DNA from: Devosia sp. Leaf420 | GTDB taxonomy: Bacteria > Pseudomonadota > Alphaproteobacteria > Rhizobiales > Devosiaceae | Direction of reading: 5' to 3' | Assembly (NCBI RefSeq): GCF_001425445.1 | Contig: NZ_LMQU01000012.1 | Coordinates: 206,278 to 270,277 of the forward strand | Length of the DNA: 64,000 bases | Shown: piece by piece, positions 22,366-34,581 of the stretch | How the letters are laid out: each line of letters begins with the position of its first letter | How positions within the stretch are numbered: position 1 is the first letter of the stretch | Program-made: the position numbers and the translations under genes | Notes under the pieces: generated by a model | Told to the model about the DNA's origin: nothing | Seen by the model: only the letters and a program-made list of their open reading frames with translations | Databases searched by the model: none

Positions 22366-22437
22366 CGTCATCCCCACGAAAGCGGGGATCTTTGTTTAGG
22401 GCAGGCAGGGATTCCCGCTTTCGCGGGAATGACGCCG
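22366..22437. repeat. Twin-palindrome intergenic repeat (CGTCATTCCC-type)
   Basis: CGTCATCCCCACGAAAGCGGGGAT and its inverse GATTCCCGCTTTCGCGGGAATGACG flank about 20 bases. It lies between the convergent ThuA-like and methyltransferase genes and could also act as a bidirectional hairpin terminator. Near-identical copies are at 32306-32373 and 42689-42759. Confidence 0.9.
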
Positions 22438-29852: not shown

Positions 29853-30497
29853 CTAGCTCTTCGCTGGCCCTGCGGGGAAAATCCCGGACATTACCGTGAA
29901 CCCCGGTACACGCCGTACCCTATCCGTCCAGCGGCGGAGGGCGGGGTAGTCCTGGCGGCCGATGCCGCCTTCTTCACTCAGCATCACATAGGGGAAGCAG
30001 GCGATGTCGGCGGTGGTCGGATGAGCCGGTGCGCAGAGCCAGTCGCGGCCGGATTTCTCGCCGAACCAGAGATGTTCATCGAGAATGCGGAAGATGCGAT
30101 GCGCGCCCATTTGGCTTTTTTCGATATCGAAGGGATAGCTGTAGCCGAGTGCAAGGCGGGCAGCAGATGAGGTCGCGGTGATATCGTCGGCGACGGCGTG
30201 CCAGCGGAGGATTTCGGCGGTGACAGCCGGATCATCGGGAAACCATTGGCCCGACGTGTCGAACTTCTTGGCGAGATAGACGAGGATGGCGCCGGAGTCG
30301 GAGAGGACAAGATCGTCGTCTTTCAGCACTGGCAATTGGCCGAACGGATTGAGACGCAGGAACCAGTCGGCCTTGTGTTCGCGACCGGGGAAAAAATCAA
30401 CCGGATGAATCGCATAGGGCACGTTGAGAATGTTCATCAGCAACCGCAGCTTGTAGCAGTTGCCCGAGAGCTCGAAGTCGTAAAGCGTTATGATCAT
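29853..30497 (-). CDS. Glutathione S-transferase-like protein, candidate NdmE-type scaffold
   Basis: GST-fold protein of 215 aa. N-terminal thioredoxin-like half: MIITLYDFELSGNCYKLRLL, then PVDFFPGREHKADWFLRLNP, FGQLPVLKDDDLVLSDSGAI. The C-terminal helical half has the usual AHPTTADIACFPYVML. Start 30497 is 3 bases after the stop of the Rieske-reductase gene, so the two are co-translated; an upstream in-frame codon (30557) lies within that gene and is rejected. In the methylxanthine demethylase system a GST-like NdmE, with no known catalysis of its own, holds NdmC and NdmD together; this placement suggests the same. An ordinary GST activity remains possible. Confidence 0.85.
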   Translation of the reverse strand: MIITLYDFELSGNCYKLRLLMNILNVPYAIHPVDFFPGREHKADWFLRLNPFGQLPVLKDDDLVLSDSGAILVYLAKKFDTSGQWFPDDPAVTAEILRWHAVADDITATSSAARLALGYSYPFDIEKSQMGAHRIFRILDEHLWFGEKSGRDWLCAPAHPTTADIACFPYVMLSEEGGIGRQDYPALRRWTDRVRRVPGFTVMSGIFPAGPAKS

Positions 30498-30499
30498 TG

Positions 30500-32209
30500 T
30501 CAGATATCCAGAACCAGGCGGCCGGACTTCGCGCGGCTGACGCAGGTCATCATGCAAGTGTTGGACGCCTTCTCGGTCTTGTTGAGATAGACGTCCTGGT
30601 GATCGACTTCGCCCTCGATGACGCCGGTGAGGCAGGTGCCGCAGGCCCCTTGCTCGCAGGAGGAGGGGACGGTGAGCCCGGCTTCGCGCATGGTCTCGAG
30701 GATGGTGCGGCCGGCCGGGACGTGGAGCGTCATGGCAGAGCGGGCGAGTTCGACATCGAAGGCCGAGGAGGCATCGATGGTCTTGTCGTTCTGGAAATAT
30801 TCGAAATGCACGGCTTCGTCGGGCCAGCCGAGCGCGGTCGCGGTTTCCTGCACCATTTCGAGCATGGCGCCGGGGCCGCAGATATAGACATGGTTGGCGA
30901 ACTGGTATTGGCCAAGCACCTCGGCGACCTTGGCCTTGATGGCTTCGCGCGTGAGGCCGATATGGCGGTCGGCCCGGCCGTGGAGCACGTCGAGCTCGCT
31001 CGAAAAGGCCATGGTTTCGCTGGCGCGGGCGAAATAGTGCAGCTCGTAGTTGAGGCTCGACTTATCGAGGAAGCGCGCCATGGAGAGGAGCGGCGTGATG
31101 CCGATGCCGGCGGCGATGAGCACGGTGCGGGTGGCGTCGCGGCGGAGGGGGAAATTGTTGCGCGGCTCAGAAATGGCGAGCACGTCGCCCTCGCGAACGG
31201 TTTCGACCAAGACCTTCGAGCCGCCCTTGGACGCACTCTCGGCCTTGACGCCGATGGTGTAGCTCATCAGGTCGCCGGGTCCGTTGGTCAGCGAATATTG
31301 GCGCACGAGGCCATTTGGCAGGTGCACGTCTATATGGGCGCCGGGCTGGAAGGTCGGCAGGTGCTTGCCATCGCGGTCGGCAAGTTCGAAGCCGATGACG
31401 CCATCGGCAGACTGCCACTTGCGCTTGACGACGACCGGGAAGGTATTGCCGCGCGGCACGGCAATATCAGGCATGGTCGAGAGTTCGACCGAGACTTTTT
31501 CAAAGACCGGCTGCAGCGGCTCGGGCGCCGGCTTTTTGGCGGCGGCGCGTTCGAGGCTGTCGCGCAGCTTGGTCAATTGCTCGTTGTAATAGCGCAGCGT
31601 CGCGATCTCGTCGGCCGGCTTTTCCGGCAGGATGCCGCGGATGACCGAGCGGGCAGCGTCGACGGGCTGAACGAAGAAATGGGCGCTGCCCAGCGTAACG
31701 GCGCGGCCGGGGATGAACTCGACAGGCTGATCATCGGGCGCTAGGCGGGAGAGGCCGGCGAGGACGTCTTCGGGCGTGGCATTGACCGGTACGGGACGCA
31801 GTGCGAACCAATCGTGGTCCTCAGCGCCGGGGAAGGGGGCAAAGGGCTGGTCATCGTTCGCTGCAGACCAGATGAGCCCGAAGGCTTCTCGGACGGGATA
31901 TTTGCGGTTTTCGATGCGGCGGGCGGGGGCGTCTGCCGGGTGGGCCGGAATATAGGTGCAGCCGGCAGAGCGATTGGCATAGCGCCAGCCATGATACTGG
32001 CACTTCAGCTCCTGGCCCTCGTTGATGCCGATGGAGAGGCGCACGCCGCGATGGAGGCACCGGTTTTCCCAGGCATTTACATTGCCATCGTCAGCCCGCC
32101 AGACGGCCAATTCGCGGCCGAGCAATTGGCCATGATAGACATGGCGAAAGGGCAGGTCCTCGCTCGAGGCGATGGGATACCAGGTGGGGTCGGATAGACT
32201 GAGGGGCAT
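30500..32209 (-). CDS. Rieske domain fused to PDR/VanB-type reductase (NdmD-like)
   Basis: 569 aa with three parts. (1) Residues about 1-110: Rieske [2Fe-2S] domain with C51-x-H53 and C70-x2-H73 (NRCLHRGV ... KCQYHGW). (2) About 250-480: FMN/NADH reductase, with RQYSLTNGPG for flavin, LIAAGIGITPLLSMARFL for NADH and ICGPGAMLEMVQETA. (3) C-terminal plant-type ferredoxin: C518-x4-C523-x2-C526-x29-C556. A usual VanB/PDR reductase is about 320 aa and lacks part 1. The same fusion is known in NdmD of caffeine-degrading Pseudomonas. It would pass electrons from NADH to its own Rieske cluster, then to the cluster-less oxygenase encoded just upstream. Confidence 0.93.
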   Translation of the reverse strand: MPLSLSDPTWYPIASSEDLPFRHVYHGQLLGRELAVWRADDGNVNAWENRCLHRGVRLSIGINEGQELKCQYHGWRYANRSAGCTYIPAHPADAPARRIENRKYPVREAFGLIWSAANDDQPFAPFPGAEDHDWFALRPVPVNATPEDVLAGLSRLAPDDQPVEFIPGRAVTLGSAHFFVQPVDAARSVIRGILPEKPADEIATLRYYNEQLTKLRDSLERAAAKKPAPEPLQPVFEKVSVELSTMPDIAVPRGNTFPVVVKRKWQSADGVIGFELADRDGKHLPTFQPGAHIDVHLPNGLVRQYSLTNGPGDLMSYTIGVKAESASKGGSKVLVETVREGDVLAISEPRNNFPLRRDATRTVLIAAGIGITPLLSMARFLDKSSLNYELHYFARASETMAFSSELDVLHGRADRHIGLTREAIKAKVAEVLGQYQFANHVYICGPGAMLEMVQETATALGWPDEAVHFEYFQNDKTIDASSAFDVELARSAMTLHVPAGRTILETMREAGLTVPSSCEQGACGTCLTGVIEGEVDHQDVYLNKTEKASNTCMMTCVSRAKSGRLVLDI

Positions 32210-32305
32210 TGTCGATCAGATCCAAAGTTTGAGGATCGCGCCACGATCGAATTTTTAGTCACGATTGCCACCCTGGCGTACGGGGTGTCTCGTCTTTTTG
32301 CTCGG

Positions 32306-32373
32306 CGTCATCCCCGCGAGAGCGGGGATCTTACCTTGTGGCGGGGACTCCCGCGTTCGCGGGAATGACGCCG
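32306..32373. repeat. Twin-palindrome intergenic repeat (CGTCATTCCC-type)
   Basis: CGTCATCCCCGCGAGAGCGGGGAT and ACTCCCGCGTTCGCGGGAATGACG face each other over about 18 bases. It lies between the oxygenase and Rieske-reductase genes. Confidence 0.9.
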
Positions 32374-32384
32374 TGGTTTGGCGG

Positions 32385-33281
32385 TCAATTCGCCTGGGGA
32401 ATCACCCCATACGTAATCCCCTTCTGGCTCAGCCATCTCCGATAGGCGATGGCTGACTTATCCGCGCGGATGGGGGTTTCCGAGCGCGGATCGAGCGGTA
32501 GTTTCTTGGGATATTGGTTTTCGAGGATCGGCTTGTCCTGGCCGAAGATGGTCTGCTGGAACCGGCGCAGGTCGGTGATGGTCGAGGTCGAGTCGATCAT
32601 CGATTGCAGGAGATGCGCGCGGCAGGTTTCTTCGGTCATGGGCTGGAGGAAAATGCCGATGACATCGCGGCGGCTTTCGTCCTCGGGGCAGGATTTATAG
32701 AGCACCGAGCAGAAGGGATGCGGCACGCGATAGACGTATTCGACTTCCATGGCCTGGGTCGCGGATTTGGCGGCACGCGGCTGCATAAATTTGCACTTGG
32801 TGGCGAGCACTTCGTCGCGCTCTTCCGAAACTTCCACGTCGTATTCCTTGACCTCGGTATGTGGCTCGGAGCCGAGGATGTCGGTGTGGACATAGGGAAA
32901 GTGGCCCATGTCGAGGAAATTCTCGACGGCACGGGGAGCGGAGACGTGAATGCCGATGGAGCCGCAGCTCATGTTGACGCGGTCGGCTTCGGCAAATTCT
33001 GGAATCGGGAAGAGATCGGCCGATGGTGTGCCGAGGCATGTCCAGGTATAGCCATAGGCGGTTTTCACCGGCAGGCGATCGAGCACCGTTTCCGCGTCGA
33101 TATCCTCGCCGTTTTCTTCATCGGTCGCGAACCAAACCACCGGCTCGCCATCGAGCCCGCGGGTCATGGCGAGGCGGCGATCGAGGAGGAGCGTGGTTTC
33201 GATAAGGCCGATCTTGAGCTCGTCGGTTGCGGCGACGACGTGCCAGAGATCGCGGGTGATGGGGTCTGGGGCTTTGGGCAT
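32385..33281 (-). CDS. Rieske-type oxygenase catalytic subunit lacking the Rieske cluster (NdmC-like)
   Basis: 298 aa. The mononuclear-iron motif is intact: ENFLDMGHFPYVHTDILG (Asn121, Asp124, His127, His132), and the C-terminal TDLRRFQQTIFGQDKPILEN matches VanA-type oxygenase tails (its Asp is the probable third ligand). The N-terminus resembles the opening of Rieske oxygenases (RDLWHVVAATDEL ... TTLLLDRRLAMTR), but no C-x-H...C-x2-H exists, so the protein cannot hold a Rieske cluster. It must receive electrons from the Rieske domain encoded by the next gene, as NdmC does from NdmD. Length fits NdmC (about 280) rather than VanA (about 350). Start 33281; upstream frame is repeat. Likely an O- or N-demethylase; substrate unknown. 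Confidence 0.88.
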   Translation of the reverse strand: MPKAPDPITRDLWHVVAATDELKIGLIETTLLLDRRLAMTRGLDGEPVVWFATDEENGEDIDAETVLDRLPVKTAYGYTWTCLGTPSADLFPIPEFAEADRVNMSCGSIGIHVSAPRAVENFLDMGHFPYVHTDILGSEPHTEVKEYDVEVSEERDEVLATKCKFMQPRAAKSATQAMEVEYVYRVPHPFCSVLYKSCPEDESRRDVIGIFLQPMTEETCRAHLLQSMIDSTSTITDLRRFQQTIFGQDKPILENQYPKKLPLDPRSETPIRADKSAIAYRRWLSQKGITYGVIPQAN

Positions 33282-33546: not shown

Positions 33547-34581
33547 ATGGACAATCAAACCACCCCACGCTTTCCCGAGGCCCTGGTGCGCAGCCAGGTT
33601 GAGGCGCGGTTGGCGGAGGCGGGGGCGAGTGAAGCGTCGCGTGCCGCCGCGATCCGGGCGATGCTGCATGCTTCGCTCGTGGGCGTGGACAGCCATGGCG
33701 TGCGGTTGACCGAGCATTATTGCCGGATGTTGGGCGGTGGGCGGCTCAACCAGAACCCGCAATTGACGGTCGACAAGCGCGGGGCGGGGAGTGCGCTGAT
33801 CCATGCCGATGATGGGCTCGGGCACTATGCGGCGTACAAGGCGGTCGAGGTTGGGATCGAACTGGCGCGCGAAGCCGGTGTTGGGGCGGTGGGCATTCAG
33901 CATTCCTCGCATCTCGGCGCGGCGGGGGCCTATGCGGTGGCGGGGGCGGAGCAGGGTTTTGTGACCTTTGCGACGACCAATACCGATTCCATGGTGGCGC
34001 TGTTCGATGGGGCGCAAAAATTCCACGGCACCAACCCGCTCGCCTTTGCGGCGCCGGTGGCCGAGGGGCGGCCGTGGCTCTTGGATATGGCGACATCGTC
34101 CATCCCGCTCAATCGTGTGCTGCTGCATCGCTCGCTCGACAAGGAGCTGCCGGCGGGTGTCGCGGCGACGCCGGATGGGCAACCGACGACCGATCCGCAT
34201 GAGGCGGATATGCTGCTGCCGTTGGGCGGTGTGGATTATGGCTATAAGGGCGCGGCGCTTGCCGGGGTCGCGACGCTGTTTTCGGCGCTGCTGACCGGGA
34301 CGACACTCGATGGCGATTTCATCCCGATGTATGGCGGGGACGATATCTCGACGCCGCGGAACATGGGGCATTTCGTGCTGGTGATCGATCCGGACAAGTT
34401 CGCTGGGCGCGAGGTGTTTTTGCGCGCGATCGGACGCTATCTCGAGAGCCTGCGGGGATCGCACGTGCGCAAAGGCGGGCGGGTGATGGCGCCGGGGGAT
34501 CGAGAATGGTCGGAGATGGATAAGCGGAAGAAGGAGGGGATTCCGCTGGACCCGGATACGGTGCGGTTTTTGGGGGTGTAA
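33547..34581 (+). CDS. Ldh_2 family NAD(P)-dependent dehydrogenase
   Basis: 344 aa. Family hallmarks: SLVGVDSHGVRLTEHYCRML near residue 45, VGAVGIQHSSHLGAAGAYAV, TNTDSMVALFDG, HGTNPLAFAAP and LDMATSSIPLNRV. The Ldh_2 group (malate/L-sulfolactate/ureidoglycolate dehydrogenase, piperideine-2-carboxylate reductase) has a fold distinct from classic LDH. Members act on 2-oxo or 2-hydroxy acids; ureidoglycolate dehydrogenase is a purine-breakdown member, which is of interest given the NdmC/D/E-like genes next door, but substrate cannot be fixed from sequence. ATG 33547 follows AGGAGG by 5 bases. Confidence 0.88.
   Translation: MDNQTTPRFPEALVRSQVEARLAEAGASEASRAAAIRAMLHASLVGVDSHGVRLTEHYCRMLGGGRLNQNPQLTVDKRGAGSALIHADDGLGHYAAYKAVEVGIELAREAGVGAVGIQHSSHLGAAGAYAVAGAEQGFVTFATTNTDSMVALFDGAQKFHGTNPLAFAAPVAEGRPWLLDMATSSIPLNRVLLHRSLDKELPAGVAATPDGQPTTDPHEADMLLPLGGVDYGYKGAALAGVATLFSALLTGTTLDGDFIPMYGGDDISTPRNMGHFVLVIDPDKFAGREVFLRAIGRYLESLRGSHVRKGGRVMAPGDREWSEMDKRKKEGIPLDPDTVRFLGV

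Follow-up and report, generated by a model that had tools for sequence, protein, structure and literature searches.

Introduction

NdmC, NdmD and NdmE together form the N7-demethylase of 7-methylxanthine in Pseudomonas putida CBB5 and its relatives. Here we describe a related locus in a 64-kb stretch of the Devosia sp. Leaf420 genome (4.2 Mb), referred to below as the window, in which three co-directed genes on the minus strand encode a mononuclear-iron oxygenase without a Rieske domain, a Rieske-bearing reductase and a glutathione S-transferase (GST)-like protein. One paper presents NdmCDE as the earliest example of a Rieske domain transferred to the reductase, and counts 18 further organisms with homologous clusters of unknown function; it names Janthinobacterium, Klebsiella and Pseudomonas, most of the others being Sinorhizobium and Mesorhizobium (PMC4408171). 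A structural role of NdmE is repeated in the available text of PMC8055839, and the structure of the NdmCDE complex is described as unsolved in the available text of PMC13237722.

A sequence-only reading of this DNA had stressed the finding of the trio in an alphaproteobacterium; it is not new for that class, given the mainly Sinorhizobium and Mesorhizobium homologues reported in PMC4408171. With such clusters already in print, what is added here is the reading, based on predicted structure, of the reductase front as an eroded oxygenase chain, although no literature search was aimed at such a front half in NdmD. In the open-access literature we found nothing on 7-methylguanine together with a Rieske demethylase, nor on Devosia together with caffeine and xanthine.

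The Trio Is a Maintained Core Locus in Devosia

The oxygenase gene (32385-33281, minus strand) encodes 298 amino acids plus the stop codon, the reductase gene (30500-32209, minus strand) 569 amino acids, recognized by Pfam and structure-library matches, and the GST-like gene (29853-30497, minus strand) 214 amino acids, recognized by GST domains and by its identity to NdmE. The last gene had been said to start 3 bases after the reductase gene, which is right in effect, two bases separating the reductase stop from the ATG. The gap between the oxygenase and reductase genes measures 175 bases and contains a palindrome resembling repetitive extragenic palindromic elements (32350-32369), an 11-base part of which recurs in the window at 22423, 42690 and 42745.

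The oxygenase is present in 32 of the 37 genomes of the genus and, among the matches listed, is 80-98% identical to proteins in named Devosia records. In four comparisons with close relatives, its nonsynonymous divergence (dN 0.015-0.065) was small against the synonymous one (dS 0.36-0.99), with a dN/dS of about 0.04-0.08. Because of this distribution and the low dN relative to dS, it is no chance reading frame; the oxygenase is under strong purifying selection and the trio is a maintained core locus. The complete set was found in the same order in 12 of the 15 Devosia-type loci, and the other three (L037, L038, L052) break off within or ahead of the set. Across an even sample of the phylum, the oxygenase profile matched 27 of 398 genomes at E 1e-20, and the match was Rieske-less by motif in 15/27.

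As a reference we used a P. putida plasmid gene set (L139), found by a search with an NdmA fragment and treated as an ndm cluster on the strength of the 92.6% identity between that fragment and its NdmA-like protein. The Devosia proteins are 43% identical to its NdmC, 54% and 40% to its NdmD (two aligned parts) and 57% to its NdmE over 212 residues; the corresponding values against a Klebsiella plasmid set are 46, 35 and 52%. This bears out the three-part NdmC/NdmD/NdmE-type architecture proposed earlier: the locus has an iron-site oxygenase without a cluster, a Rieske-fused reductase of the ferredoxin-NADP reductase and plant-ferredoxin kind, and an adjacent partner homologous to NdmE.

The Oxygenase Keeps Its Iron Site and Lacks a Rieske Cluster

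Pfam assigned the oxygenase to VanA_C, with KshA_C slightly below the cut-off. Its predicted model (mean predicted local distance difference test score, pLDDT, 88.6) has the SxtT/GxtA fold (Z 30-31), with matches to SxtT at Z 31 and to NdmA at Z 25. SxtT/GxtA (SxtDIOX), NdmA and NdmB are its best solved relatives and also close fold matches of the reductase front, but they are whole enzymes with cluster and iron in one chain. The iron-site motif N121-x2-D124-x2-H127-x4-H132 (32886-32921, minus strand), located by alignment, supplies two His ligands and the bridging Asp, and D249 (32535-32537, minus strand) the third, carboxylate ligand, roles that are established for Rieske oxygenases. N121, D124, H132 and D249 are invariant and H127 nearly invariant in a 71-row alignment, and the iron ligands are invariant in 20/20 Devosia rows.

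A six-frame scan of the whole window gave five matches to the C-x-H...C-x2-H motif of a Rieske site, the sole one at the locus being the reductase's own. We also considered a Rieske site hidden by a wrongly called oxygenase start, a check proposed with the earlier reading, and ruled it out, as the in-frame stretch upstream of the start contains no such motif. In the alignment with SxtDIOX, the segment holding the cluster loops is absent from the oxygenase. The earlier description of a protein that keeps Asn121, Asp124, His127 and His132 without a cluster site was therefore confirmed by alignment and motif scan; where a canonical Rieske oxygenase alpha subunit has cluster and iron in one chain, the two sites here lie on two chains.

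The 'QL' mutant of NdmA departs from the wild type at two positions, 242 and 246; Devosia (20/20 sequences) and NdmC (5/5) have Gln at the first and Phe at the second. Gln242 was found in all of the NdmC clade (5/5, three from plasmid sets), in 11/12 of the group with a separate Rieske protein and in 72/81 other relatives, and in the rhizobial upstream paralog the residue is Met (24 rows, one gap). Only 242 and 246, out of 38 tabulated positions, are backed by a mutant, and agreement with NdmC at the 38 says little because most were picked for being conserved. The Devosia protein also differs from NdmC, having Glu254 instead of Ile, Val or Leu, and His141 instead of the Leu found in most NdmC sequences.

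The Reductase Front Resembles a Shrunken Rieske Oxygenase

Pfam detected Rieske, DmmA-like_N, NAD_binding_1 and Fer2 on the reductase, and GST domains on the third protein. The Rieske [2Fe-2S] domain (residues 9-91; 31937-32185, minus strand) carries C51, H53, C70 and H73, invariant in a 52-row alignment, and the view that it fronts a VanB-type reductase stands. On the same strand follow a flavin/NAD(P)H module of the phthalate-dioxygenase-reductase type (residues ~262-477; 30779-31426) and a plant-type [2Fe-2S] ferredoxin domain (residues 488-561; 30527-30748), which matches the ferredoxin domain of NdmD (6icm_D, E 2.2e-19). This back half is shared with phthalate dioxygenase reductase and the VanB type (2pia_A, E 1.3e-65 over residues 263-569), but 2pia_A, with 321 residues, matches from residue 263 and has no Rieske or eroded oxygenase front half.

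Residues 92-351 matched no Pfam family, and the flavin reductase proper starts near residue 263. A separate Rieske protein of ~220 amino acids, encoded in other loci, aligns over almost its whole length with reductase residues 1-225, so that the reductase front is one unit. When the tail (residue 120 onward) was compared alone with the oxygenase profile, it gave a collinear match (E 6e-5, probability 65%) to one strand and the following helix of the oxygenase catalytic domain, against probabilities of 0.1-0.4% in six column-shuffled controls. The predicted model of residues 1-250 (mean pLDDT 87.9) had SxtT and GxtA as best Foldseek matches (E 1.7e-15), and aligned 216-223 residues with dicamba monooxygenase, SxtT and guaiacol demethylase through their catalytic domains at Z ~19 (dicamba monooxygenase 3gke_B: Z 19.4, 219 residues, root-mean-square deviation 2.6, chain 2-309; SxtT 6wn3_A: Z 19.1). 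Residues 116-236 contain no iron motif, and their two histidines both lie outside the listed conserved positions.

Profile and predicted structure therefore mark residues ~120-230 (31520-31852, minus strand) as a putative eroded Rieske-oxygenase catalytic domain devoid of iron ligands, and by the model residues 1-230 are a shrunken whole Rieske oxygenase chain. Two sequence comparisons speak against this: alignments between the separate Rieske proteins and Rieske-bearing oxygenases are confined to the Rieske domain, and the reductase tail matches the catalytic domain of Rieske-bearing oxygenases weakly (probability 3.6%). We hold to the erosion reading because the predicted structure decides where the sequence match is weak. 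On these models, two worn relatives of one Rieske oxygenase appear to complement each other, one keeping the iron and the other the cluster. Such a split over two chains can work, since ordinary Rieske oxygenases already pair the cluster of each subunit with the iron of the adjacent one, ~12 Å away (PMC12445004).

Some loci combine the two oxygenase types, with Rieske-bearing oxygenases beside Rieske-less ones (L102:6856-7869, L103:6937-7944, L096:9920-10894, L098:285-2156), and are possible intermediates of the split. On a Variovorax paradoxus plasmid (L024:9001-10812), NAD-binding and ferredoxin domains are naturally fused to a Rieske-less oxygenase in a protein of 604 amino acids, and another gene encodes the Rieske protein; a 2025 review knows of no self-sufficient Rieske oxygenase (PMC12445004).

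The Devosia Oxygenase Branches Apart From NdmC

Sequences without a Rieske motif formed one clade, with support of 98/98 for 48 of 54 rows in a tree of rows hand-picked for spread, and SH-aLRT 99 for 143 of 168 rows in a tree that omits 15 of 19 same-genus loci, repeat loci and rows of <200 residues. The NdmC branch (18 rows, 99/93) holds the rhizobial upstream paralog and the sets with a separate Rieske protein, and the Devosia oxygenase falls outside it. Forcing Devosia and NdmC together, a group chosen after the first tree, was 32.5 log units worse (approximately unbiased test, p-AU 0.034). The earlier assignment to the NdmC clade was accordingly given up, and the protein is no NdmC ortholog, given its position outside that branch and this p-AU; NdmC was kept as the working model. 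The remaining Rieske-less clade is poorly resolved in its branching in the 54-row tree, and the trees place the Devosia branch seemingly nearer to rhizobial and actinobacterial relatives than to NdmC.

The sequence comparisons thus indicate that the Devosia trio is a conserved machine of the NdmCDE kind in a branch of its own. Its likeness to NdmCDE extends to all three proteins, which are homologous, and to the shared Gln242 and Phe246. It differs in the separate oxygenase branch, in the divergent gene for an Ldh_2 dehydrogenase beside it, in being a core locus of a soil genus, and in having no second, Rieske-bearing oxygenase gene of the NdmA/NdmB kind in the window, where the only Rieske motif at the locus is that of the reductase. 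Elsewhere in the genome, one match to the oxygenase was found at E 0.001, in a search that could miss distant NdmA/B. The closest relatives outside the genus, among the matches listed, are the ndmCDE homologues of Sinorhizobium and Mesorhizobium (~59-64%), which have the same three proteins; many rhizobial loci, however, contain two tandem Rieske-less oxygenases, a BMP-type transporter and a GntR gene, whereas Devosia has one oxygenase and no such transporter.

Sets resembling ndm also occur among insertion sequences on plasmids, in Klebsiella (L142:9659-16313) and in Komagataeibacter from kombucha (L141), where the Rieske protein, the reductase and the oxygenase are separate genes.

Neighborhoods of Relatives Point to Purine N-Demethylation

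We inspected the best 80 of at least 518 stretches encoding a relative, 65 from outside Devosia and 15 from Devosia, with full flanks in 34/65 and 12/15, respectively. Because only the best 80 were kept, the counts lean to close relatives and the loci are not independent. Genes were called with a GC-frame gene caller, which replaced a clustering swamped by antisense frames and still leaves some false genes.

Outside Devosia, the fused reductase was found in 57/65 loci and the GST in 53/65 (29/34 and 28/34 with full flanks); they were absent from the flank in 8/65 and 12/65, partly on short contigs (5/34 and 6/34 with full flanks). A BMP-type transporter protein was present in 43/65 loci (27/34 with full flanks), and a guanine-type deaminase in 15/65 (8/34), ten at 49-90% identity and five weak at 29-34%. 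Two formaldehyde-oxidizing functions recurred, hydroxymethylglutathione dehydrogenase in 13/65 (58-74% identity; 7/34) and S-formylglutathione hydrolase in 7/65 (45-52% identity; 5/34), and an XdhA/B-like protein in 6/65 (5/34), strong only in L059 and L076. An annotated guanine deaminase lies near the trio in Mesorhizobium AR02 and Rhizobium tumorigenes, and an 8-oxoguanine deaminase in Paracoccus; in the Sinorhizobium K101 and Variovorax loci a BMP protein was seen, with no deaminase in view. The BMP, deaminase and formaldehyde-oxidation neighbors therefore favor removal of the methyl group as formaldehyde from imported purines, and the neighborhoods of the relatives, as read from sequence, point to purine N-demethylation.

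Two candidate signals were discarded. A count of all ABC transporters was dropped, since they are also present in 10/15 Devosia loci (BMP alone, 0/15), and so was a xanthine dehydrogenase beside the Mesorhizobium trio, a 1185-amino-acid molybdenum protein that matches most genomes of the genus only via residues ~740-1060. A serine hydroxymethyltransferase, and an adenine deaminase and a nucleoside hydrolase that served as queries from other loci, received their names from sequence alone; the identities of the adenine deaminase and the nucleoside hydrolase in the Leaf420 genome were checked. In S. meliloti, guessed locus tags gave only a different kind of transporter.

Two Rieske-less oxygenases accompany one reductase and one GST in 24/65 non-Devosia loci, mostly rhizobial. 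These loci include L043-L047, L050, L051, L054-L063, L066 and L070, and the group holding the downstream oxygenase mostly has Gln at 242.

The Leaf420 genome itself has a xanthine pathway. On the same contig, 109 kb from the trio, XdhB scored 1290.9 bits against a cut-off of 849.5; from ~100 kb the contig also encodes a membrane-type urate oxidase domain, HIUase, PuuE fused to OHCU decarboxylase, ureidoglycine aminohydrolase, ureidoglycolate lyase, guanine deaminase, adenine deaminase and a BMP-type transporter, with XdhA and permeases of that contig read from sequence only. Xanthine from the trio would therefore have a breakdown route, and the link to purines drawn earlier gains support both from this pathway and from the deaminase and BMP neighbors of the relatives. 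A second BMP set, with a deaminase, an adenine-deaminase-type protein and a nucleoside hydrolase, lies on another contig of the same genome (C11; L150:8106-18330). Its deaminase shares 54% identity with that next to the Mesorhizobium trio, and the type (52-56%) occurs in 11 of the 37 genus genomes.

Proposed Mechanism and Alternatives

We somewhat favor a reading, built on sequence, structural models and analogy, in which the trio would be a split Rieske oxygenase, driven by NADH, that takes an N-methyl group off a methylated purine and feeds the product into the purine pathway. Electrons would pass from NADH to flavin, to the plant-type [2Fe-2S] cluster, to the Rieske [2Fe-2S] cluster and to the mononuclear iron, the two last duties being divided between two eroded relatives that go back to a single ancestral chain, with the iron on the oxygenase and the cluster on the reductase front. 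The GST-like protein would hold oxygenase and reductase together in a complex. The N-methyl group would leave as formaldehyde from 7-methylxanthine or a close relative, and a xanthine-type product would be handed on. If true, this gives a natural setting for an enzyme type characterized in caffeine degradation, explains how a Rieske domain could move to the reductase, cluster and iron already being on neighboring subunits, and offers a core-genome model in a soil genus, along with a rhizobial two-oxygenase version, for direct study of substrate and regioselectivity.

A wider proposal is more tentative, and we think it rather unlikely as a whole: Rieske-less oxygenases would be an old, widespread family of methylpurine demethylases supplied by the breakdown of methylated RNA bases (one such route being deamination of 7-methylguanine to 7-methylxanthine, followed by demethylation), with the caffeine NdmCDE a late recruit. 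The machine would have arisen when two copies of one Rieske oxygenase eroded in complementary ways, the first retaining the iron and the second the cluster, and in rhizobia one reductase would serve two oxygenases that differ in regioselectivity (Gln or Met at 242).

Several observations weigh against demethylation of a purine in Devosia. Of the 15 Devosia loci (full flanks in 12), none has a gene of the BMP, deaminase, formaldehyde or XdhA/B kinds; the signs of a purine setting come from relatives at ~60% identity, counted over non-independent loci, and from a distant region of the genome. The oxygenase stands outside the NdmC clade, and Gln242 is also found in 12/20 Rieske-bearing relatives of other kinds, and therefore does not single out purines. 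Finally, the sole partner tied to the trio in Devosia, the Ldh_2 dehydrogenase (33547-34581, plus strand; Pfam and genus survey), has no obvious step in a purine-demethylation pathway.

This partner underlies the foremost alternative, which is a real possibility although we think it will probably not hold: the same split machine would hydroxylate or demethylate a non-purine substrate in Devosia, and Ldh_2 would handle the product, a 2-hydroxy acid, a ureido or a cyclic imino compound. Ldh_2 (E 1e-60 or better) was found in 28/32 genus genomes with the oxygenase and in 0/5 without it (Fisher p 2.9e-4, or 1.2e-3 without a 62%-complete genome, uncorrected for relatedness among non-independent genomes). 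In 26 of the 28 it lies divergently at a distance of 0.1-1.5 kb, and in two on another contig; by locus, it occurs in 11/15 Devosia and 0/65 non-Devosia loci. The single oxygenase and the missing BMP-type transporter of the Devosia loci fit this alternative as well. Against it, relatives at ~60% identity adjoin BMP transporters and deaminases, and Gln242 and Phe246 are as in NdmC, though the former also occurs in Rieske-bearing relatives. The hint that Ldh_2 might be a ureidoglycolate dehydrogenase did not hold up: it misses the AllD cut-offs (206.7 of 356 bits and 197 of 496.2 bits), and a ureidoglycolate lyase is encoded in the genome. Its nearest relative of known structure bears the name malate dehydrogenase (1z2i). 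In two Devosia loci (L036:4738-7646 and L037:4912-7817), a large protein and a gene judged by eye to be response-regulator-like are inserted between a short-chain dehydrogenase/reductase gene and Ldh_2.

Demethylation, as favored above, could also be replaced by hydroxylation of the purine ring. HpxD, annotated as a molybdenum-cofactor-independent xanthine hydroxylase, is related to the oxygenase (28-30% identity), and the purine-related surroundings of the relatives would suit such an activity; we nevertheless regard it as improbable, because HpxD is a far weaker match than NdmC (43-46%), the formaldehyde-oxidizing genes beside the relatives (13/65 and 7/65) fit methyl removal, and the genome carries its own XdhB. 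Least credible of all is a dead or structural oxygenase subunit whose reductase serves another oxygenase of the cell, since, even if the genome may encode further Rieske-type oxygenases, the iron ligands are kept in every Devosia row and the dN/dS is that of a protein under strong constraint.

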